Notes under the pieces: model-generated | What the model saw: only the letters and a program-made list of their open reading frames with translations | What the model was told of the DNA's origin: nothing | Databases searched by the model: none | Assembly (NCBI GenBank): GCA_950295325.1 | Contig: OX485807.1 | Location: 31,531,666-31,595,665, forward strand | DNA length: 64,000 nucleotides | Direction of reading: 5' to 3' | Source: Polytrichum commune | Taxonomy: Eukaryota; Streptophyta; Polytrichopsida; Polytrichales; Polytrichaceae | Part shown: positions 516 through 57,689 of the stretch, piece after piece | Numbering within the stretch: position 1 is the stretch's first letter | How the letters are laid out: each line of letters begins with the position of its first letter | Translations under genes and position numbers: made by a program

Positions 516-1742
516 CCAGTGAGTCCACTGATGACAAGCATAACCATAACTCTAGGAGTCAGCGGAGTCCGCTGCCCTCTGCAAAATTCCAGTAAACCAA
601 CACATCATGAGAAGGTAATAGGTATATACGTGGCCCTATTGGGAGCACTTCCCAACTCCAAAGACAATTTTGTTTTATTCGTCGATCCATTCGTCTCAGG
701 GAACTGACTTATCCGCTGATGGAGTTCGCGTATCATAATGTCATGTTTCAGAATCACAAAGAACTACTATTTCAAGTTTCAGAATCAGCCTTCAGATGCA
801 GAAAGTTATAAGAGGTCAGAGTGAAAATTTCCTTTCGCTTCAGACAATATCATAAGAAGACTCTTTCAACTCCCGAATGTGTGAACTATTACTAGGAATG
901 TTGTCTATATCTTCTGAGCACATTGTCCAGTCTCTTTGCACTCGTGTCCGTATAGTGTCCGTTGATCTGAACAAAATGCATTGCCATATACCACTCAGAC
1001 ATAGGTATCCATTTCAGCAGAGTGACCACACCCTGCCCACACACCTCACTCGACAATGTAAGGTATCCGGGTGTTATTCAGCTACTTTTCTTGATCGGAC
1101 GCCTACACTTGATTGGTGCATATGGTTAGGTGATGATCAAAGAACAAAAATCATAAAGACACATGTTTAGAACAAATTGGACTGCGTATTCAACTCTTAT
1201 TAACCACTCCACACTCAATAGTGAACACAACCGAGAGGACCTAACTTATGTATTCAGTTCAGTTAAGGAATCAGCAAAAGATACACTTCCTATAACCTTA
1301 ACTAAATCAGGGGAGGTCTGATTTTCGATCCAATGCTGCCAATGCTTCATCGTAGCTTTGCAAATGCAACACAAGTTTTGAGATGTGATTCCAATCAATA
1401 GAAGAGGGAGAACAAGAAAAACTAACCGAATAACATGACCCGCATACCTTAGACAATACATAGGCATCAAAAATCTATGTGACAAAGTGACACATTGGTA
1501 CCCCACCTCTCCGAGAGATACGCAAAGGGAGCCAGAAACAGCAAGCCGATGATGTCCCTGTACACTGCAAACACAAATCGATTGGCTCCATTACTCAAAG
1601 CCGCCTTGGAGAGTATGAAGTATCCGGCATAGCCGAGCTGGACAAAGCTCAAGGCTAGCAGTATGGTGCCCCTGCTATCTAGCCATCTCAAGCTCCTTGA
1701 ATGCTGCTGCGAATCCCCCATCACAGCAGCGCCACTACCCAA
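516..1742 (-). CDS. WAT1-related (nodulin MtN21/EamA-type) transporter, 5' part only
   Basis: Partial gene for a multi-pass membrane transporter of the plant WAT1-related/UMAMIT family (EamA fold), whose known members move amino acids, auxin or other small metabolites across plasma membrane or tonoplast. Two exons are seen: complement(join(516..578,1507..1742)). Exon 1 gives a short hydrophilic leader, a first membrane segment (ILLALSFVQLGYAGYFILSK) and the family hallmark YRDIIGLLFLAPFAYLSER. It ends at a GT donor in phase 2. The 63-nt exon 2 follows a TTTTGCAG acceptor, restores the frame, and reads GQRTPLTPRVMVML then VISGLTG, matching the usual loop and start of the third membrane segment; it ends at GTAAGG. 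Further exons should lie left of the window. The first Met at 1742 is used; a second in-frame Met is 7 residues on. Substrate cannot be told from this fragment. Confidence 0.85.
579..1506 (-). other. intron 1 of the WAT1-like gene
   Basis: AT-rich intron of 928 bp between the two visible exons. It holds a diverged repeat near 1138-1220 (words such as cataaagacacatgttt and cacactcaa) that recurs at about 15790-15885, so a dispersed element fragment has settled in the intron. Open frames inside it do not resemble any family I know. Confidence 0.6.
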
Positions 1743-2279
1743 ACAATGGCTAACTGAGCTCCAGAAGCCCAGATGAAACTAAGTTATCTGCAACTCACAT
1801 TCTCGAGAAGAATACAGCATGCATGTTGTAAATCCCGTTCCAAGTTTGGAATGAGAGACCAAGTATGCACAGAATTGCGCAACGCCATGGCCGGATCAAC
1901 TTCAGAGAAGCAAGCGCTGCATGGATGCATGAGCTGCCATAACGCTGTGCGTCGCCTAAAGCTTTGTTACTTTTCAGAGAAAGAAAGGTACTTTTTATTC
2001 ATAGCTCTGTACCTATGACATGTACCCAGAGCGTACATATAAGAATTTCCCATGTTTGTGGTGGGTACATATGGAAATACATCTGAGTGTACCTGAGTGT
2101 ATACAGAAGTGTGAAGTGGGTGATGAATGCAGAGTCAGTGCATGTGCCCAACATGTCTGAGAGCCTACCAACCAGTGCTTTCTCTTCTTTTTGTCGAATT
2201 CAAGAAATCCGAAATGACGACAATCATTGGAGTGATGAAGCTATGTTTGGATATTATTACATATTTGCATCCAAATATG
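1743..2279. other. upstream region of the WAT1-like gene, nothing further recognised
   Basis: This stretch should contain the promoter and 5' leader of the minus-strand WAT1-like gene. I see no clear TATA box at a convincing distance and no other gene. The short plus-strand frames here show no family resemblance. Confidence 0.4.
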
Positions 2280-2540
2280 TATGGCCTTATCAACTAAAAT
2301 GAGCCAATTGGTCCACTCAATTTAATGTAGGAAACGTGATGGGAACATTATGATTGCTAGTTGGTACAAGAGAATACCCGTTGAGGGTTCTTAAAATACA
2401 ACTCAATCATTCCAATACACCCACACATGTTTATAAAACCATGTAAATAATCAATTATAATATGGAAGATCTCATCAATTGTGACGGTACGGATTGTCTC
2501 ATAATGGCCCAATTGGCTCATGTTAGTTGATAAGGCCATA
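2280..2540. mobile_element. small inverted-repeat element (MITE-like foldback)
   Basis: The ends form an inverted repeat of about 32 bp: the left arm begins TATGGCCTTATCAACTAA and continues to GAGCCAATTGG near 2312; the right arm (about 2509-2540) is its reverse complement with one or two mismatches. The interior is AT-rich and non-coding. A clean target duplication is not visible, so the superfamily is unassigned. Size and structure fit a MITE. Confidence 0.6.
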
Positions 2541-3702
2541 TGGCCACATTTTTTTTAAATATGGCAATGTCATCCGAATTTTATGATTGTGGGAGATGTC
2601 TTCATATACAATAAATAAATAAATAAAAAAGGGGGGGGATGTCAATCTAATTTGTTAAAGTGAGTTTCACTTCCAATGAACCCATATAGAATGTTCTTCG
2701 TTCAAACCTCCACACCAAACATACATTGAAAACTTGATATTGATGGTGGAAAATTTTGTATGCAAAATAAAGAACTCCTAACTAAAACTCCGGTTGCTTG
2801 AGACCCATTCACATCCCACATGAAAAGTGGAATTCGCCATGGAAAGGATGAACAAGGAAAAGCACCCTTTCATATATTGTATCAACTATACATTCTAGGA
2901 TATCTACAAATTCATGTAGAATAATGAGGCAAGACTAAGTCTTCAGTCAAGTTTCACATGGAGTAAGTACTTTAATACATTTGGTACATTATTGCTCTCT
3001 TCTTGAGATTCAACAACCCCAAAGATCTTGCAATAAAGCAACCTAGTGTGTTTTATGAGAGGTTGGGAGTAAAGAATCAAAAGAAACAAGCGGCTAGTTG
3101 CAAGAGTGTTTTGTCTTTATCTAATATTTAAGTAAATTGTACTAAGTCCAAGTTCAAAATTTAACATGTTGAATTCTATCATAGGATTTTACGATAGGAT
3201 TGTATGGTAAGATGCTCCAATATAATGTATAGATAGTATTATAATAGTTTTGTGGGTTGTATGTTTTTAATTTAATATTTATTGACCCATAGAATTGAAG
3301 CAACCAGAACGTCCAAAATTTTAAAATATGTCTATATTTATTTAAAAGCATCGTTCTATTATTATCTTGCACACATGGTTAGTTCTAGTTGGTGGTCCAA
3401 CCAAAGCCAAACTTTGCTCATTTTATAGAGCACTTGAAATCCACAGTCACTTGCAACTCGACTCCACTTAAAGAAACAAGTTGCTAACACTAACACTTCC
3501 AAAGCACATCACATATGTGGTTGGTTCAGATCCGCTACCAAACTTTTGGCTCATTTCATATACCATCTCTAAGTCTCTTCCCACAAGGCAGAGCCAACAA
3601 AATGGTAAACATCAAGAGCCTCACGTCTTCAATCATCAAAAAATAAAGCAATTCATTGATTTCCACGGAGAGAGTGCTTCCTGGAAACACTTTCATGTTT
3701 CA
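2541..3702. other. AT-rich intergenic DNA, no gene seen
   Basis: Contains a short AAAT microsatellite followed by a G run near 2609-2638. The remainder is AT-rich, with only short open frames that resemble nothing I recognise. Confidence 0.4.
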
Positions 3703-4043
3703 AGACCATTTCACACACAAACAAAGAGCCATGACCATGCAAATTGTGAGAGCCCTTGATTCTCATCCAAAGACTGTATCATTGACATGGTTTGCCAATA
3801 TTTCCATCAGGCTTACCTCTTGGAGGTGGGCCTCAAGCAAATTCCAACAGACCATGAAACATTATTTATAGTTTGCCATGTAGGAATCCATATAGACTTA
3901 TTCCGTCCATGATAATTCCTTGAGGCCTTCGTGCCTTTACCTTCTCGTGAGAAGTGAACTTGGATAGCCTCAGCCTTTTTGATGAAGGAGAGGCCTCAGA
4001 ATGCAATGACCATGGACCTTCACTCTCATGTGTGAAGTGGCCC
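3703..4043. mobile_element. GGGCCACTTC-family MITE, diverged and internally shortened copy
   Basis: Starts GACCATTTCACACACAA, followed by a segment containing GAGCCATGACCATG and GTGAGAGCCC. It ends TGTGTGAAGTGGCCC. These are the same ends in the same order as the better preserved copy at 22407-22902. Shared interior words include CCATGTAGGAATCCA and GTGAACTTGGA. It is about 150 bp shorter than that copy. The left TIR is mutated and no target duplication survives. Confidence 0.7.
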
Positions 4044-4843
4044 TCCCCCCATGTCATTAGGACGCTCCATGAGCCCAAACCGAGGGTGGACAGTTGTAGG
4101 GATTGTCTGTATGCAGGGGGAATTCATTTAGCTGACAAGCCATAAGCTCCAGGGAGCCAGTGGGACATTCATGTGTCTCACTAAATGCCATGAGACGATT
4201 GATACATTGCCAAAGTGCAAAATCATTGTAAGGAGTGTCGTGCTCCTTCATAACTGACTTTTGCTTGCTGTGCAGATGTAAATTGGTGTCAACACCTCCC
4301 TCACCGACTTTCTCCCAGCTTACTGCAAGGCATTATTAAGTTAACGTGCTTTCTTCCAGATGAGCCTTTGGAAATGAGGGAGGATCAGCACGACCCCAAC
4401 ATGCTGAGTTTAGGAGACTTGAGCATTGCATACTTTTTACCACTGAAGCCACCTGCATCTAAACAAGTGGACAATGCTATCTACAGCGTTTGTCATTGCA
4501 ATTAGAGATGACACTCCATTGCAATTGCAGACAGACAGACACTTCTGACTTTTTTTCCCTCTTTTAGATGGGAAGTAGCACAGGGATCTGACCTCGAGTT
4601 CCTTTAAACCCTAAATCTGGCAATGGAGTTTTGACACAACAAGTACTTCCAGAAATCGGACTTGCCACTTTGGGTCACCAGGGTATTCACCAACTCTTCT
4701 CCGCTGCATGGTTGAGAAGAACTGGAGCTTAAGACTTGCCCGGCCTAAAGGACCCCCCCCCCCCTCCGTTCTCCACCTTTAATATGGTTGGGGCACCTCC
4801 ATGGCCCAAACTCCATCTACGCTTGGGCTCATGGGGTGCCTTA
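4044..4843. other. intergenic DNA with a poly(C) tract
   Basis: Contains a C run of about 14 near 4751-4764 within an otherwise unremarkable region. No gene is supported. Confidence 0.4.
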
Positions 4844-21599: not shown

Positions 21600-22092
21600 A
21601 AGCTACCTACATTCATACATGAGCCAAGAGCCATGTCCATGAAATTGTCAGAGCCCAAAAGAAAGTGTTCGAAGGCCGTCCCAACACACCTCCAAAATCA
21701 TGTATTGTGATCACGGATCCTCAAGTGTAGTGTGACCGGGTCCTTGACCAAATGCTATTTCAATGAACGTCTATTCATACGGATCCTCACACATGATAAA
21801 ATAGAATATACCAACAGTCGTGAGCGTTTAGAGTGCCATAGTCTCCCGGTTTTGTGTTAGGCCTACCTCCAAGAGGTGGTTTTTGAAACTAGTCCAAATG
21901 ACCATGAAACATGATCCATATGATGCCATGTAGGAATCCACGTAGACTTTACATCCATCTTGCATTCACATACTCCGCTGGTCCCTCAAGCGTAGTGCGA
22001 AGCGAACTTGGACTGGCTCTGCCTTTTTCCACCAACGAGAGTGCTTGACGTGTAATGGTCACGGGCTCTTAGTCTTGTGTGTGAAGTGGACA
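21600..22092. mobile_element. GGGCCACTTC-family MITE, copy with damaged left end
   Basis: Aligns along nearly its whole length with the copy at 22407-22902. Shared words include cagagcccaaaagaaagtgt, ccaacacacctccaaaatca and tctcccggttttgtgttagg. The right end is gtcttgtgtgtgaagtgg. The left end has lost the GGGCCACTTC terminus, and no target duplication remains. Confidence 0.8.
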
Positions 22093-22406
22093 TGTTTGGG
22101 TTTTTCTTTATTGAATTGAGGCATGTTCCATAATAGATCCCTCTAATTTTTCCGGAAGTCTTGAACCTCAACCGCTTATTTCTCAAGGTTGATCAGTTCA
22201 TCTGCAACTCAAGCTCTCCCCGTTCATTGGGTTGACCTTGTTCACTTGCCTGCCACTTTACCAGGTACACTAAACCAGTATTTCCGCAAACTAGGAGATT
22301 CGCAACCTGACTGATGCCACAAGCTTTCCCCAAAATCAATGAGTGAGTTCTTGTGTACGGCTACATTGATTATGAGATTCTAAACTGTAGGCTGCTACTA
22401 CACTAA

Positions 22407-22902
22407 GGGCCACTTCGCACACGAGCCGAGAGCCGTGACCATGAAATTGTGAGAGCCCAAAAGAAAGTGTCCAACGACCATCCCAACACACCTCCAAAAT
22501 CATGTATTGTGGTCACATATCCTCAAGTGTAGTGTCATATGTGACCCGGTCCTCAACCAAATATTATTTCAATGAAATTCTATTCATGCGGGTCCTCACA
22601 CATGATAAAATCAAATAAATCAATGGTTGTGAGCATTTGGAGTGCCAAGGTCTCCCGATTTTGTGTTAGGTCTACCTCCAAAAGGTGATTTTTGAAAATA
22701 GTCCAAGTGACCATGGACACATGATCCAATCGATGCCATGTAGGAATCTATGTAGACTTTACATCCATCTTGCATTCACATACTCCGTTGGTCTCTCGAG
22801 CGTAGTGTGAAGCGAACTTGGACAAGCTCCACCTTTTCCACCAATGAGAGTGCTTGAATTGTAGTGGTCATGGGCTCTCAAGTCTTGTGTGTGAAGTGGC
22901 CC
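22407..22902. mobile_element. GGGCCACTTC-family Tourist-like MITE with TAA target duplication
   Basis: A 496-bp element with left end GGGCCACTTCGCACACGAG and right end CTTGTGTGTGAAGTGGCCC, which are inverted complements. The match extends inward through GAGAGCC and the TGACCA/TGGTCA words. It is flanked by TAA at 22404-22406 and 22903-22905, as expected for PIF/Harbinger derivatives. No transposase frame is present. Two further copies lie at 3703-4043 and 21600-22092. Confidence 0.88.
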
Positions 22903-50221: not shown

Positions 50222-50641
50222 GCCGTCCTAGCTCAGTTGGTAGAGCGCAAGGCTCTTAACCTGACGGTGCGGGTGTGAGCGGCGGCGAGGAAGAATACCA
50301 CACAGACAGAAATCTAAACAAATGCTTTGAGGATAGACGTTGCTATTATGGCTTCTACACACCAACAAGTGCAGCAGGACCCTGTAGATAGAGTCGCCAA
50401 GCGCCGCCACTTGGAGACAGACAGGAGGGGCCCAGCACACCAAGTTTGGAGACGTGTCGGCGAGAGGCCAATCAACCACGATAGCGGACCACTTGCGCAG
50501 GTAGGAGAGTGATGTCCTCCAGAGCCAGCAGCTTGGTCAACTAACTCATCTGAGATACTTACTTCCACGCCGCCTGCTCTCCCACCAGACACGGAACACC
50601 CACCACCCGAGGAGTAAGATCAAGACATGAGCCGGAAGGAC

Positions 50642-52745
50642 AAACCGCGCAAGTTCATCGCCACAATACCAGAGGCGGTCCTCACCAAGCTATGAGCCAA
50701 ATGTGAGGCAAAAGCATCCACCACCCTATTGGGGAGAATACAAGGTAAACACCCTGGGCTCAAAACCCTAACGACCTGGGAAACCCTACACTCATCCTTC
50801 ACACTGCTTTTGCTAAAATCCAACAACATGTTCGAAGTTACCTTTGAACATGTGGAAGGAAGACTGCACGCGTTGAAGCAGGCATACCTAACCTGCGAGT
50901 CAATTGCAATCTTCTTCTCTAGTTGGTGATCACACTTCAACTCCCGATCACCGCAAGCCATAGATACATTGGACTGTCTAGTGTGGGTCCAAATTGTAAA
51001 CCTCTGCCAAATTCTAAGGGAAGAAACATTCCTACATACGATAGGGGATCAGATAGGGCAAGTTATCGCCATAGATAACTCAGAAGCATACATGGCCAAG
51101 TTGTTTGGACCGTGCATATGCTTATTGGTTCAAGATCTCAACAACCTGCCACACATCGTAGTCATTCCAAGACTGGATGGAGAAGGGGTAGTAGAGTACG
51201 AGTTAGAGTTTAGTGGCCTCCCCAACCAAAGCGGACGTTGCCGCTCACGAGACCATCAAGTAAGACACTGCCCCAAACGGGAAACTCAAGGAAGAAAACG
51301 CGAGATGAGGAATAGAGAGAGTGCAAGGAGGAGAGGTAGAGCCCCACGGCCCGCAACGGTGACACAACCAACTAAGACAATCTCCTCACCCTCGCTTATT
51401 GAACCGCCATCACCTAAGGAAGCTGCCACCAATACGCATGCAACGGAAGACATAATATTGGAGAATACAGGAGTAGCCGAGCAGGGGACAACTCAAGACA
51501 TACTCACAAGCCAACCAACTCTCCTAGACCCATCATTGCATCAAGAGGTTGACAATAATGCACAGGTAGCAGAAGACCCAATAGCAGAAAACACAGAGGC
51601 AGTCGATCAGGGGGTGAGCGACGACATATCTACAAGTCAATCAGCTCCTCCGAACCCGCCCTCACCCCAAGAAGCCGCCATCAATACACAGGCAACGGAA
51701 GACCCAACAATAGAGATTGAAGGAGCAACCGAACAAAGGTTTGAAGAAATACCCACAACTGTGCAGAAGGCACAAACCACACCCATAGAAGGTGGATCCG
51801 TTCCGCATACCCCGGCTCAAGCGCGTAGCCCGGCCCCCAAAACAGAGGACATACCAGCAATGCTACTCCCGGATGACATAAACTTCCCTAACCTGCCATC
51901 ACCGATCAGGAGTCTCTCAAGCCTGCCTGCGCAACCAAGGAACACAATCAACTCTCCTGTCCCACAAGTAAGAAGACCACAAACGACGGAGAAAACACCA
52001 TCTTTGGTGTTCATATGGCGATCCAAACCACCCAACGAGGAACCGTAGTAGACGTTGGAGCCACACACAGATAAGGGCAAGTCAAAAGCAAAATCCAACA
52101 TACCTAGATTCCCGGACTTAACACCGATAACAAGACAAGGTTATCGGACAGGACGCCTGGCAGAGGACTTTTGGGTGGCACTTGGCATACCCAACACTCC
52201 CCCCTCCCCTCGCAAGACATTGCAAGTCATCCCCTTCTTAACCAAGGATTAGCTGACAGAGCAAGCAAAATACTTGGTTGACAAAAAGATACATCCTAAC
52301 AACACAATAGCACAGATGCACATAGCGGAGTTACTAGTTGGAATCCCTTGGACAACCACACAGGCTAGACAACATGTTGTTAATGAAACATCCCAAACTC
52401 TACACAAAGTCCTAATTTTTAATAACAACTTGTCCAACCCATTCCAAAATTGGAACCAAGGGCGTTGGTTTGCGAGCTGGAGGGAGGACGCCGATGGTGA
52501 ACACACCTGCACATTATTCGTTAGAGTCACAGTGATGGAGCCCAAGGTAAAACCAAGAAAGGGCTAAAACTTCAAATGGCAGCTAGTACCAACAGACATA
52601 AGAGAGCAAATTATAGCGCACATACCGGACACCATCGTAGCCGTAGACAAGGAACCCCAACAATGGCATAGGATGGCAAGCAAGCATCACCTTAACCCTG
52701 AGGTGATCTCGCAGGGGCCACACAACCACACCGCGGCATTAAATA
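50642..52745 (+). pseudogene. LINE ORF1 (nucleic-acid-binding protein), several stops
   Basis: A single frame is followed from about 50642 to 52745 with in-frame stops at 50693 and 50927 (TGA), 52046 and 52049 (TAG), 52249 and 52565. The longest open piece is 50969-52048. The text LDCLVWVQIVNLCQILREE and GQVIAIDNSEAYMAKLFGP matches the plant L1 ORF1 domain usually seen before a CCHC knuckle. The knuckle reads SGRCRSRDHQVRHC, with Ser where the first Cys belongs. An acidic Pro/Thr-rich part with about three 42-residue repeats follows (about 51400-51770). ORF1 proteins coat LINE RNA. This copy is broken. Confidence 0.8.
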
Positions 52746-52789
52746 TGTAGGCGACATCCTCCAATGCGGCAACCCACCCAACCCCACAT

Positions 52790-54173
52790 GAAAGGTGAAG
52801 AAATTACAATTGCAACCTAGAACACCCGAGGGTTGGGGCAAGGTTTCATCGGGAAACACAAACGCAAAGAAATCTAGAACCTCTACAAAAATACCACACC
52901 CAAAGTTGATATTCTACTTTTGCAGGAAACAAAACTCCCGGAGGAGGCCAGTCTAAAACAAACACACTTTGTTGAATTCCGGGGCGGTTCAAGCTTCTGG
53001 AATGAAGCCTCTTTTTCAGCTCAAATAGGAAGATACACGGGAGGAACCGGCATCATCCTCTCGGAGAGAATGGCCGTGGCTACTAAACACCATGGCATAC
53101 TCTTCCCAGGCTGAGCTCAATAGCTCCCGCCTCCAACTGGGCATCATAAACATTTATGGATTCAGCAATACCGGCCCAAGGGCCATGCTTTGGAATCACC
53201 TAGCACAAACACCACTACCAGAAGCATAACGGGTATTAGCAAGAGACTTCAACAACATAGAGAGTATATAGGACAAACAATGAGGAGTTAACAAGACAAC
53301 ATTGGCAATCGAGAAATGGAAGTGTGGAACAAACTCCTAATGAGATTGGGAGTCAGGGATGCATTCCATATTGGAACATTCCGGCAAAAATCCACCAAGG
53401 CATTCACCTAGACAAATGCTCATAACAATGCCACAATGGTCTAGTCCCGGATAGATCGGATCTACGTACCAACAAAGTTGGTAGCTGTAGGAGGAACAAT
53501 TGAAATACTCCCGGAAATCCCAGATATTTCAAACCACTCCGGAGTTATCATGCACTTCAGCAACACATGCCCACGGAAGTCCAGACAACCCTTTTTCAAC
53601 AAAGGGTTGCTCAAACATCCAGAGAGCAAAGCAACATTGTTGAAAACCTAGAAAGAAAGCATGGAGAATCACTCACTTCAGAGTTGGAATGCTAAGGTAG
53701 TAGCAGCCAACAAAGCTATAAAAACAAAATATGAAGAATTCACCCGCCATCAAAAGCAACATTGGAAAGCCACATACCTTGCAAGGTTCGAAGAAACAAT
53801 CGAGGCTGAAGATGAACTGCAATGCAACTGGGGATCAAAAGAGGCCCGGGACCACCTCAGCGATGCACAAGCCAAGCTTCATGAAGTTAGAAACCAAAAA
53901 TTCCAATTCAAAGAGAGCGCCACTCTCTCCAAATGGGCGAGAGTAGGAGACAAATGCACGAAGGAATTCTTCGAGCATTATGCAGGCCAAAGACGTCAAG
54001 TCACAATTAACCAACTATTAGAGGGAGACATGCACCCACACCAACCCCATGTCAATGGATGGCTCCTAAAGAAGAAGACGGATCCATCCAAAGAATCTTT
54101 CATGTCACCAACATTGAGCCATTACACGCAACCCTCTACCACAAAGACGCAACGGAGAAATTACATTGCATAG
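52790..54173 (+). pseudogene. LINE ORF2, N-terminal part with AP endonuclease
   Basis: One frame with several stops. It opens with T-stop-NTRGLG (normally TWNTRGL) near 52828, then VDILLLQETKLPEE (the conserved QET with catalytic Glu), RYTGGTGIILSERM, SRIDRIYVP near 53450 and ISNHSGVIMHF near 53527. These are endonuclease blocks in order, ending in the SNHS-like His motif. The uninterrupted stretch 53661-54173 is the linker before reverse transcriptase (VGDKCTKEFFEHYAGQRRQV). The frame then loses similarity near 54060. The enzyme would nick target DNA to prime reverse transcription. Confidence 0.82.
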
Positions 54174-55777
54174 AACGACACCACCAACCGGTAGACAATC
54201 AGCTACAAGAAGTACGCATTATCCAATGTGAAGGACCCAAAAGAACAGTCCTCAACTTCAACCCAAAAGAGGAACCAGACCCCGAACATACCTTATGGCT
54301 ATGGGGCAACGACCTTGAATGGGATCCAAAAGAATGGCAGTGGCGACGCATAGGTATACTCCCAGAAACATCAGTCCTCAATTATAAAACCAAGCAAGGA
54401 TACAGGGTCGCCCTCAAACAAAACAATCACACAATGCGAGTGGATGCAGAATTAGAAACAACAGGATACAATAGCAAGAAAAGGGCAATTTTTTTTAACA
54501 GAATCTGGCACCCCTACTTACCTCGCAAAGTCTCAACAATGCAATGGCTGATATTGACAAAGGGCTTACCAGTGGGCGCCTGGAAGGAAAGATTAGGCCT
54601 ACCAAGCGAGTGCCAACTCTGCACCGAACAAACCAAAGAAACACTGCAACACGCGTTTAAAGACTGCCCGGAAATCAACAGAGTATGGAACCTCTTTCGC
54701 AACACTAGACAAAGTACAAGACTACCTGCCGCCTTTCACTCATGGACAAAAATCAGCCGAGGCCTAATGACAGAACCCCCGGGCCCAAACATGGAGGAAG
54801 AACTCAAATGGGACACCGCAGCCGCATACACGATCACCACCGACACACCATGGGACATATTAAGAGTTCACCTATTATGGGCAATCTGGTGTTAGAGGGT
54901 AGACTTGGCATTCAAAAATGAGCAATTCCACCTAGGGTTGGTCTTATGGAATGCTTGGAGGAATACAATTTATTGCGCAATGGAGGCTTACAAGGAATTG
55001 TTCCGCCACAAGCGCAACGAAGAAAAGCGCCAAGAGGCCATTGCATGTTTCCAAGCAATATGGACAGCAGAGAGCATCTTCGACAGACTTCAGGGAGGCA
55101 AAATCTAGTGGAATCTTACTCCTGATACGAACTTCCTCCCCAGAGAACTAGGCGCATGGCTAGTTCCACCCATCCGAATCAACTGACTTTCACAGTCACC
55201 GGACCTAGAGGCGGACTTTATGGCACAAACTAACCTGGAAGAACATATCGACGAATTTTTGCAAGGGATAGCCAATAACTGGCGACCAAACCAGGAAGAG
55301 GCTTTGGAAGCATCACAGGAACAAGAATCTATTGCACACATCCACGCTGCTACAGAAACAACACAAGGGCGAGAGACACTCACCCCGAACAGAGAAGAGG
55401 GACAGGGCCTAAGCCCATCCAACAGATCCCACGAACACACTCACCCCCAGCGCAGCAACATGCACCAAAGGAGGCAAGACAACCGTCATCCATTTCAACC
55501 TCTCACAAATAGAGAGCCCATTCTCAAGGAGGACGGAGACGCGGGCAAGTCGGAGCCATTAAAGCTAGCTAGCTCTAAAGTCACAAGTAGAAACAAAAAG
55601 AAATGCCCAAGACGGCTTTACCACCCAGTGAACAGAGCAGACTCTACACCACCCATCGTCAAAGAGCAAAGCAATATACCAAATTGTAAAGATAGAGAGA
55701 GGACACACAACGGCCCCACTGACCTCCCCATAAATCCAAAAAGCAGATACAAGACCCGGTGCCGATTCGGACCGTGA
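54059..55777 (+). pseudogene. LINE ORF2, C-terminal part (zf-RVT and extension)
   Basis: Continues in a different frame from the N-terminal part, with stops at 54893, 55106 and 55184. The 54059-54895 piece carries the zf-RVT signature: FFNRIWHPYLPRKVSTMQWL, then CQLCTEQTKETLQHAFKDCP, a CxxC...HxxxxC metal site. After it come WNAWRNTIYCAMEAYKELF and a charged Gln/Glu/Pro-rich tail to 55777. No fingers/palm motifs or YxDD lie between the endonuclease linker and this region, so the RT core (over 1 kb) has been deleted. Confidence 0.8.
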
Positions 55778-55942
55778 CCAAGAAAGGGACACTCACTAGC
55801 ACGCACGGACCCACCATCAGCTCGTGTTCGGACACTCCATGGTCGAAGATTGCCCCGCATATGGGATGCGTCATCCCACCACCTCCCAAATGGTGAACAC
55901 AATGAGCCCCCTCACGAACAAAACACCTCCTCCGCATACCCT

Positions 55943-56355
55943 GAGAGAGTCACACTAATGCCGGCCGCACCCACTCGGCAAACACCCTCGACCATTACAA
56001 AGCACAAGCTCAACCGGCACAGAGAGCAAATCCTTACAGGTTCACACAACGGAAGTTTGGCATTACAGAAGAGGAATTTGAAGAGCGCATCAATGAAGAA
56101 ATAGAAGATCTCCTCAAGGAAATTGAGGAATCCAAAACGATACATGTGGAAGCTCCCCCACCGCTAGAAGCAGCTCCCCCCGAACGCCCAATCTCAAAGG
56201 AAGAGTGCCTTCGCATATTCAGAGGGATGGAAAGACACACATCAGGCACTCTTCTCGGAATGTATAGGTGGGCGGCCAACCTTGGAGAAGCCCGCTACAA
56301 ATTCAATATGAGTTGGGATGCACACATCATCAGTCTCCTTGACGCCTATGATTGA
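55943..56355 (+). CDS. extra 3' open frame of the LINE, unknown function
   Basis: A 136-codon stretch without a stop, in a third frame relative to the two ORF2 pieces. It includes FTQRKFGITEEEFEERINEE, an acidic heptad-like segment IEDLLKEIEESK suggesting a short coiled coil, a Pro-rich linker, and a more ordered end LRIFRGMERHTSG then MYRWAANLGEARYKF. No ATG opens it; the first Met is near its end. I do not recognise it. It may be a frame-shifted tail of ORF2, a captured host fragment, or a genuine small third ORF. Confidence 0.4.
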
Positions 56356-57479
56356 AAGGACCACGTCGCCACACGCTGGCCACCTTCGATCGAGCCCGCA
56401 GCAAGGCTCCGGAGCCCACCTCTTGCCACACAGGCGTGAACGACCCGCCCCCCGACTTCCCGCTCCAACACTCAGTGAGAGTAGCGAGCAAGGTAGGTTG
56501 GAGACAACACCTTCAAGGAGAGTGGCGAAGAGGGCAGGTTGGAGACACCACTTTGGGTTTGCTCCCCTCACAAACCCCACAAGCGAAAGTGATCAAGAAG
56601 AATACACCACCCGGGTTGCTAAATCAAACCCCCCATGCATTGCCATAGAGGAAAGGTGAGTACCTGACTTCGACGAGAGCGTGAGGCCTAACAGGGCACT
56701 GATCACTCCCAAACACCAAATATGGACACGCGGCCCGACCCGCGGCCACTATGGTAAATCATCAACACGTACGGTCTCCATGACAATTCGTGTCAGTCTC
56801 TTCAGCCGCCCACTTCTCACCCCCTGGGATGGGATGGACAACCTCCATTCCCCCAAATGATGGTCACCAAGATCTCCTACACGATCAAACCGATTGGTTT
56901 GGCTGAAGGTTGTCTGACACCACTGAGGATGCTCCAGAGGGACACCTTCAAGACGATCTTGAGGATCCCCTCAAAGGTCCCGTGGAATCCGAAACGTCCC
57001 CGGTTGAAGCTTCCACTCGTATGAGCGGAGAAGCCCGACGTTTTCCCCTCCGCAACACCCCTTCCGCCACGCAACAACGACATGCCCAACCGCTTCCGTC
57101 CTCTTAGCGACTGCGCTTGAAGCGACCCTCCCTCCGGTCCCTCACCGGCCAAACTCCCGCCATTCAGTCTTCAAAGACTTTATTGCCCAGTTGCGAAGCA
57201 CAACCTCGTCCCCGGATCCGATGCAAGCACTGGGACCCCCTCCTTGGGGACGGGCCCTCCCTCTCATAGGGAACGGGTGACCGTTTTCCCTCTCCCTCCC
57301 CTCTTCGGGCGTGTTTATTGCTTAGTTGATTTTCTTTTTGTTTATTAGTCTCAGTGGTAGTACCGACGTGGTCACCACGGGGCCCCCTTGGGGCCCTACC
57401 GGGCCAGGGCCTTGGTCTGGCCTCCCCTCGGGGATTGTAATTTGTTACCTACCATTTAACCTCGGTGAGGTCTTCACAT
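56356..57479 (+). other. 3' non-coding region of the LINE
   Basis: C-rich on the plus strand and without convincing coding potential. Near 57380-57440 it is very GC-rich (ggggcccccttggggcccta), which could fold into strong hairpins as in some LINE 3' ends recognised by their reverse transcriptase. The terminal sequence before the duplication is not A-rich. Confidence 0.5.
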
Positions 57480-57689
57480 CAAGGCTCTTAACCTTGTGGT
57501 CTAGGGTTCGAGCCCCTGGGGTGGCGAACTACCTAAGTTGGTTCTTTTCCTGCGGATTGAATTTGAAGTAAGTGGAATATGCAACTAACACAAGTGAGAT
57601 GTCCTGTTTTGAGAACTTTTTGTTGGAGTATATAGCTCATTAACAATACTATGTATATAATTGAAAAGTGGGTCTTTTGTAGTCACATG

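Follow-up and report, generated by a model that had tools for sequence, protein, structure and literature searches.

An L1-type LINE family of the moss Polytrichum commune with a preference for tRNA genes

Does a plant long interspersed nuclear element (LINE) that lies inside a transfer RNA (tRNA) gene reflect a preference for such genes, or a single accident? The question is raised by a stretch of 64,000 nucleotides of the Polytrichum commune genome (assembly GCA_950295325.1, contig OX485807.1, positions 31,531,666 to 31,595,665 of the forward strand; hereafter the window). A first-pass annotation, made from the sequence alone, placed a LINE within the anticodon arm of a tRNA-Lys(CUU) gene in this window, and its two tRNA halves, its duplication and its restored 73-nt tRNA were all borne out. 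The interrupted gene has the following parts:

50222..50262, + strand: 5' part of tRNA-Lys(CUU), including the left duplication copy; rejoined with 57495-57526 it makes a complete tRNA
50248..50262, + strand: left target-site duplication, CAAGGCTCTTAACCT
57480..57494, + strand: right target-site duplication
57495..57526, + strand: 3' part of tRNA-Lys(CUU)

The two copies of CAAGGCTCTTAACCT (15 bp; 50248-50262 and 57480-57494) are identical, the joined flanks are recognised by ARAGORN as a complete 73-nt tRNA-Lys(CTT), and the insert between the duplications (50263-57479, 7,217 bp) has the same orientation as the tRNA. Another ARAGORN match, at 57456, was taken as a false fold in which the tail of the LINE serves as the 5' half. 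The annotation equated the duplication with the anticodon arm itself; the two coincide because the first nick lies at the first base of the arm, and the lengths of the duplications in tRNA genes are variable.

Insertions inside tRNA genes

The genome (408 Mb in 64 contigs) was searched for further copies, and all counts of genome patterns and DNA matches given below are lower bounds. The last 300 bp of the window LINE gave 18 genomic matches, and in 13 of the 17 besides the window the match does not extend beyond the last 61 bp. With up to two mismatches allowed, 63 occurrences of the 21-base tail were counted, against 0 of its reversed pattern. Two more divergent copies (L021 and L025) from the 300-bp search were added to the tail set. 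Removal of spurious or overlapping matches (the second of L011, L024 at 9754, L040 at 1810 and the first of L068) reduced 68 tail-like matches to 64, and collapsing near-identical flanks (L018, L064, L057 and L058) left 60 distinct sites. Thirteen of these 60 copies lie in tRNA genes:

tRNA-Lys(CUU), three insertions: window, L014, L023
tRNA-Gly(GCC), nine insertions: L016, L017, L019, L026, L035, L036, L042, L055, L080 (L016 and L080 diverged)
tRNA-Glu, one insertion: L059, whose target we take to be tRNA-Glu from its sequence

Anticodon arms thus recur downstream of copies that share the 3' end, as the annotation had proposed they might. The opposite outcome that it had named, the same 3' end at unrelated sites, also occurs in part, with 47 of the 60 copies outside recognisable tRNA genes and 13 inside. 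A strict specificity for a tRNA anticodon loop is therefore not supported, and the chief tRNA target is Gly(GCC) rather than Lys. The family has a strong preference for tRNA genes, not a strict specificity.

The point of insertion is constant in Lys and Gly genes, where the 3' junction marks the start of the anticodon stem (26|27, numbering by eye); the Lys copies have one extra base (T, A or G) between tail and stem. The duplications measure 15, 7 and 5 nt at the Lys sites (the 5 of L023 assigned by eye, with one adjacent base lost), and 17 (L036), 7 (L055), 17 (L035) and 17-19 nt (L026) at Gly sites. The empty sites of the window, L014, L023 and L036 rejoin into tRNAs, that of L023 being drawn three bases longer by ARAGORN. 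Over all copies the flanking duplications range from about 5 to 19 bp, as expected from target-primed reverse transcription, and the junctions are of the target-primed type.

The preference was also counted from the side of the target, in a census that took tRNA 3' halves, not the LINE, as its starting point (up to 3 mismatches per pattern). It comprises 50 Lys and Gly 3' halves, 38 intact and 12 cut off, and the LINE tail stands directly upstream of 10 of the 12. Among 23 Lys(CUU) 3' halves, 20 are intact and 3 are lone, all three with the tail; among 27 Gly(GCC) 3' halves, 18 are intact and 9 are lone, seven of them with the tail directly upstream. Ten tails in these 50 loci compare with 0.0005 expected of 60 (P about 5e-40).

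We also noticed that the intact tRNA-Gly(GCC) genes mostly have introns, 15 of 18 as judged by spacing, of 11-14 nt (for example at L036, minus strand, about 1150). In land plants tRNA introns are known mainly from tRNA-Tyr and tRNA-Met. The Gly introns displace the B box and the nick stays where it is; its position therefore seems to depend on the A-box side or on local sequence rather than on a constant spacing from the B box.

Two pairings of tails with 5' halves were dropped for mismatching junctions: that of the L016 tail with a Gly 5' half 12.8 kb upstream (L084), and that of L010 with a diverged Lys 5' half (L086). A Gly 5' half and two Gly 3' halves that stand alone lie close together at G000:C1:32726702-32727585, without the LINE tail.

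Other sites and the 5' ends of the copies

Many of the remaining sites have a feature of RNA polymerase III (Pol III) genes. A B box (at least 10 of 11 positions) lies 12-48 nt downstream of 22 of the 64 copies, compared with 0.31% of 20,000 random places, the range of 12-48 nt having been picked after inspection of the data. Outside tRNA genes 10 of 47 copies have such a box, at a distance of 28-37 nt, against 0.39% of 40,000 places. At the same score the antisense control gives 1/60 and a shift by 100 nt gives 1/37. The ten B-box sites outside tRNA genes are probably tRNA-derived short interspersed nuclear elements (SINEs). Similar flanks form three groups (L047, L048, L070 and L081; L012 and L030; L043, L077 and L061), most with B-box-type heads; they may be families of tRNA-derived SINEs, and were met with here only beside this LINE. 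The duplication of L043 follows immediately after AGTGGCTAAGG, which we take to be A-box-like.

The only motif seen across sites is RYA, usually GTA, on the sense strand of the target at the nick, present at 38 of 60 sites and at 29 of 47 outside tRNA genes (background 6.6%). Several ordinary sites have perfect or near-perfect duplications of 14-18 nt, some of them around inserts of only 21-38 bp. Such inserts, barely more than the LINE tail between duplications of 14-19 nt, were seen in L027, L043, L044, L054, L066, L068 and L069, and are cases of extreme 5' truncation. Truncation at the 5' end and duplications of about 15 bp are usual for L1 elements.

The 5' ends of several longer copies contain pieces of tRNA genes. 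Of five 5' flanks that were read, four (L082-L085) show a Gly(GCC) 5' half that leads into this LINE. L082, a 6.7-kb insert behind L055, is 5'-truncated and by eye starts a little upstream of the endonuclease. L083 and L085 are 79% identical over 155 aligned positions and were for this reason taken as 5'-complete. Both have a second Gly(GCC) anticodon-arm piece after the duplication; that of L085, CCAGCTCA, differs from its own target, CCACGTCA, and resembles another Gly gene (L019). No second tRNA piece was seen in L084.

A genome search with the 5' untranslated region (UTR) of L085 found 8 places, including L085 and L083 themselves. The other six are L089 and L092, described below, and four copies at non-tRNA sites. 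These four (L087, L088, L090 and L091) have 5' ends made of 3'-ward parts of GTAGTGGTATCATAGTACCCTCCCAAAA (one mismatch in L091), which is a tRNA-Gly(CCC) 5' half running into an intron. These four share stretches of 15-18 nt with the flanks of the tails L032, L040, L061 and L028. A 14-nt duplication around an 826-bp insert at L040, with one mismatch, was taken as chance, L088 giving an 18-nt match 9.5 kb upstream. The 20-mer ATCATAGTACCCTCCCAAAA, with up to 1 mismatch, occurs 9 times in the genome, in the four LINE 5' ends and in five loci:

tRNA-Gly(CCC) loci with ATCATAGTACCCTCCCAAAA: L089, L093, L094, L095, L096

At two mismatches there are two further matches, and the reversed pattern gives three at up to two mismatches. 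Of four intact tRNA-Gly(CCC) genes, three (L093, L095 and L096) have introns of 13-14 nt and L097 has none. L089 is a tRNA-Gly(CCC) locus interrupted by this LINE, and is counted as genuine on account of an upstream flank similar to that of the intact L095; its pairing with the tail L030, 28 kb apart, is unproven. In L094 (G000:C6:8894720-8894885) a further tRNA-Gly(CCC) 5' half is broken, after CTCCCAAAATAAATAAAAGTGAG.

Altogether six 5'-complete copies bear a tRNA-gene piece at the 5' end, and five of these pieces differ from the site at which the copy now lies. Parts of tRNA genes are thus carried over with the element.

The window copy and its family

The LINE in the window is a dead copy, with frames broken by stop codons and with the reverse transcriptase lost; residues 57-707 of the relative L021 find no match between window positions 54029 and 54035. 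Its 5' end was placed by a weak alignment to the 5' UTRs of other copies. Its parts are:

50263..57479, + strand: L1-type LINE, 7,217 bp, with internal deletion and stop codons; 5' end probably near complete
50930..52045, + strand: region of open reading frame (ORF) 1, with sub-threshold DUF4283 and a degenerate CCHC knuckle (by eye)
53033..54029, + strand: putative apurinic-type endonuclease region, frames broken (tblastn with copy L015)
54029..54035, + strand: reverse transcriptase deletion point, about 650 residues missing
54011..54892, + strand: ORF with zf-RVT (PF13966), E 3e-13
55187..56352, + strand: C-terminal extension in two frames, ending in LLDAYD; relatives have SRPKxKCRFGPR-type basic motifs
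57458..57478, + strand: conserved 3' tail AACCTCGGTGAGGTCTTCACA, with hairpin ACCTC-GGT-GAGGT

The family carries a predicted L1-type reverse transcriptase. RVT_1 is present in L021 (E 8e-34) and L015, and the best PDB matches of the L021 region are to human LINE-1 ORF2 (E 3e-57 to 4e-56), with R2 at only E 2e-17. A zf-RVT domain following an L1-type reverse transcriptase is the plant arrangement, and zf-RVT scores above the Pfam cut-off in the window (E 3e-13), L014 and L023, a plant-type L1 feature. DUF4283, which like zf-RVT we take to be a plant-type domain, is just below the cut-off in L025 (E 1.4e-5) and below it in ORF1 of the window LINE (E 0.0025). Exo_endo_phos has a match below the cut-off in L019 (E 0.0013), covering most of the model, and none in L015. 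QETR/K, GDFN and DH motifs, located by eye, are presumably those of the endonuclease. A PDB search with the L015 endonuclease region and an NCBIfam search with three protein pieces returned nothing useful.

For the C-terminal part, 99 relatives at E up to 0.001 were found among 7,989 candidates scored (genome and metagenome protein database). An alignment of 18 of them with three genome copies has invariant columns that include cysteines, lysines and the GP of two SRPKxKCRFGPR-type basic motifs. The three Lys copies resemble each other at 74-78% identity and two non-tRNA copies at 65-74%; they may represent a Lys sublineage of the LINE. One of them, L023, is 5'-truncated and without reverse transcriptase, and has an open frame of 1,183 codons (855-4403) from zf-RVT through the repeated C-terminal extension. 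L023 may be young, since this frame is still open.

The copies share a structured 3' end. With nine copies that have little beyond the tail excluded (51 of 60 used for alignment and folding), the last 25 nt fold into the same structure in 42 of 51 tails. The window LINE terminates in AACCTCGGTGAGGTCTTCACA plus one T and has no poly(A) tail. The copies, which were collected by the tail itself, likewise have no 3' poly(A) or A-rich tail of the kind found in poly(A)-tailed L1 elements: four A's among the first eight flank bases occur in 1 of 64, and in this one, L068, they belong to the duplication. No exact match to the tail was found outside the host genome in viral_contigs or genome_contigs. 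Elsewhere in the window, outside the LINE, positions 21617-22899 hold a pair of direct repeats (about 480 bp each, with 86% identity and a spacing of about 330 bp).

Mechanism and comparison with known systems

Judged from sequence, it is probable that this L1-clade family prefers Pol III genes that have an A and a B box inside them and enters the stretch between the two, the host tRNA gene serving both as target and as transcription start. The LINE ribonucleoprotein would be drawn to the gene by bound Pol III factors (TFIIIC/TFIIIB), as reported for Dictyostelium TRE5-A, its endonuclease would nick a nearby RYA, and the new copy would come to lie downstream of the 5' half of the tRNA gene. 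LINE RNA would then start within or upstream of this half, and full-length progeny would take along part of the former host tRNA. The tRNA pieces at the 5' ends suggest that donor copies sat in tRNA genes and that their RNA began there. The length of the RNA and its T runs argue against Pol III as the sole transcriber. We see an even chance that the lineage is adapted to tRNA genes in a fuller sense, landing between the boxes, borrowing the tRNA 5' half for its transcription start and recording ancestral host genes in the chimeric 5' ends of its progeny. The odds seem equally balanced for L090 as an example of such a record, with residence in Gly(GCC), then in Gly(CCC), then at an ordinary site.

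Several observations weigh against this account. No recognisable tRNA gene or strong B box is present at 37 of the 60 distinct sites, and the suggested recruitment by Pol III factors is drawn from insertion position and B boxes only. With the B-box threshold relaxed to 9, the antisense control rises to 9/60, because the T arm is nearly palindromic. The tRNA-Glu copy L059 was cut five nt earlier, two of the nine lone Gly 3' halves are without the tail of this LINE and hence are not explained by it, and L017 and L042 may be a single event duplicated later. The extra piece of L083 is identical to its own target and could stem from local duplication. Finally, a tRNA piece was not seen in L025, which lies at a non-tRNA site and has its 5' end located in the same UTR region, or in L092, a weaker match in which the 5' junction was not located; therefore other start points exist.

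Other explanations share part of this evidence. That 12 Lys and Gly copies are cut at the same position within one base could mean that a LINE protein reads tRNA DNA directly, as R2 and R1 do with ribosomal DNA (rDNA), Pol III factors being uninvolved. GTACCC is found both at the Gly site and in L030, a copy outside tRNA genes, and the long basic C-terminal extension could, from its sequence, bind DNA. We nevertheless doubt this explanation, since the motif common across sites is confined to the first three bases: Lys GCAAGG, Gly GTACCC, Glu GGATAC and SINE-like GTTAAGG differ beyond them, and what they have in common is a downstream B box. We are about as sceptical of a captured promoter, in which one LINE lineage fused with a tRNA-Gly(CCC) 5' half long ago and now has it as its own part. 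The same tRNA-Gly(CCC) piece does occur in four copies, but the linker between it and the 5' UTR is different in every copy, that of L090 looking like a Gly(GCC) gene remnant (by eye). Two copies in Gly(GCC) genes bear Gly(GCC) pieces instead, and L089 is a real tRNA-Gly(CCC) locus interrupted by this LINE, with a flank like that of the intact L095.

It is unlikely that open chromatin suffices, with active tRNA genes merely accessible and no targeting at all. The 37 of 60 distinct sites that are unremarkable would fit such an explanation, but the tRNA-like sites were entered in one orientation and in a narrow stretch between the boxes (antisense 1/60, shifted 1/37). That chance is at work, or that a few interrupted tRNA loci were copied, is hardly credible: L035/L036 and L017/L042 do lie in paralogous loci, but the elements whose junctions could be read have different lengths, 5' truncations, tail sequences and duplication lengths, and the expected number of 0.0005 and these independent junctions already contradict it.

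Targeting through Pol III genes thus remains our preferred explanation. A plant-type LINE here enters the body of tRNA genes; of the loci counted, it has split 3 of 23 for Lys(CUU) and 7 of 27 for Gly(GCC). Combined with an RNA start in the host tRNA gene, if true, this would add a further mode of exploiting tRNA genes. If selection purges harmful insertions, the true tRNA preference may exceed 13/60. The family makes it testable what draws L1-type endonucleases to their targets and how LINEs become transcribed after integration, and the carried tRNA pieces offer a readable record of past donor sites.

R2 and R1, which belong to other clades, live inside multicopy rDNA at a strict single site and depend on the rDNA being transcribed; the endonuclease of R2 is restriction-like. 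The moss LINE resembles them in its residence inside a multicopy RNA gene and differs in strictness, with 13 of 60 copies in tRNA genes where R2/R1-type elements have nearly all copies in one target.

The literature comparisons that follow draw on the accessible parts of the papers cited. Among plant elements, LINE1-1_ZM, a stringent L1 of maize and sorghum, is likewise of L1 type with a conserved structured 3' end, and the parts consulted do not mention tRNA targeting or 5' tRNA pieces for it (PMC3747384). The stringent plant L1 of Ohshima has a UCU loop and a CGAG flank, whereas the moss tail has a GGT loop (by eye, PMC3747384). Dada elements of fish and Perkinsus also insert inside tRNA genes, including Gly, some of them in the anticodon arm, and in Lys genes they use the A-box region (PMC8869645, PMC3706591). 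Dada has a DDE transposase and 6-7-bp duplications and does not use reverse transcription, unlike the moss LINE with its reverse transcriptase, zf-RVT and 5-19-bp duplications. The Tx1 group of L1 includes Keno, Mutsu and Dewa. Dewa, a zebrafish LINE, is also target-specific at tRNA loci, but in the tRNA-Leu spacer and not in the gene (PMC3706591). The Utopia paper lists tRNA genes among the targets of LINEs in general (PMC4640811). We found no report of a LINE inside tRNA genes, or of a plant LINE with a tRNA preference, in the accessible parts of the open-licence literature, most subscription papers lying outside this scope.

Targeting of Pol III genes by retrotransposons has been described from yeasts and social amoebae, and there beside the gene, as in the yeast Ty and dictyostelid TRE elements (PMC5911963). 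The closest parallel is with the dictyostelid TRE5, TRE3, NLTR-A and NLTR-B, which are likewise L1-type LINEs favouring tRNA genes; TRE5-A requires the B box, and Pol III factors have been reported in its targeting (PMC5911963, PMC5006619). The dictyostelid elements land 2-150 bp from the gene, which stays intact, whereas the moss LINE cuts inside, at 26|27, and destroys it.

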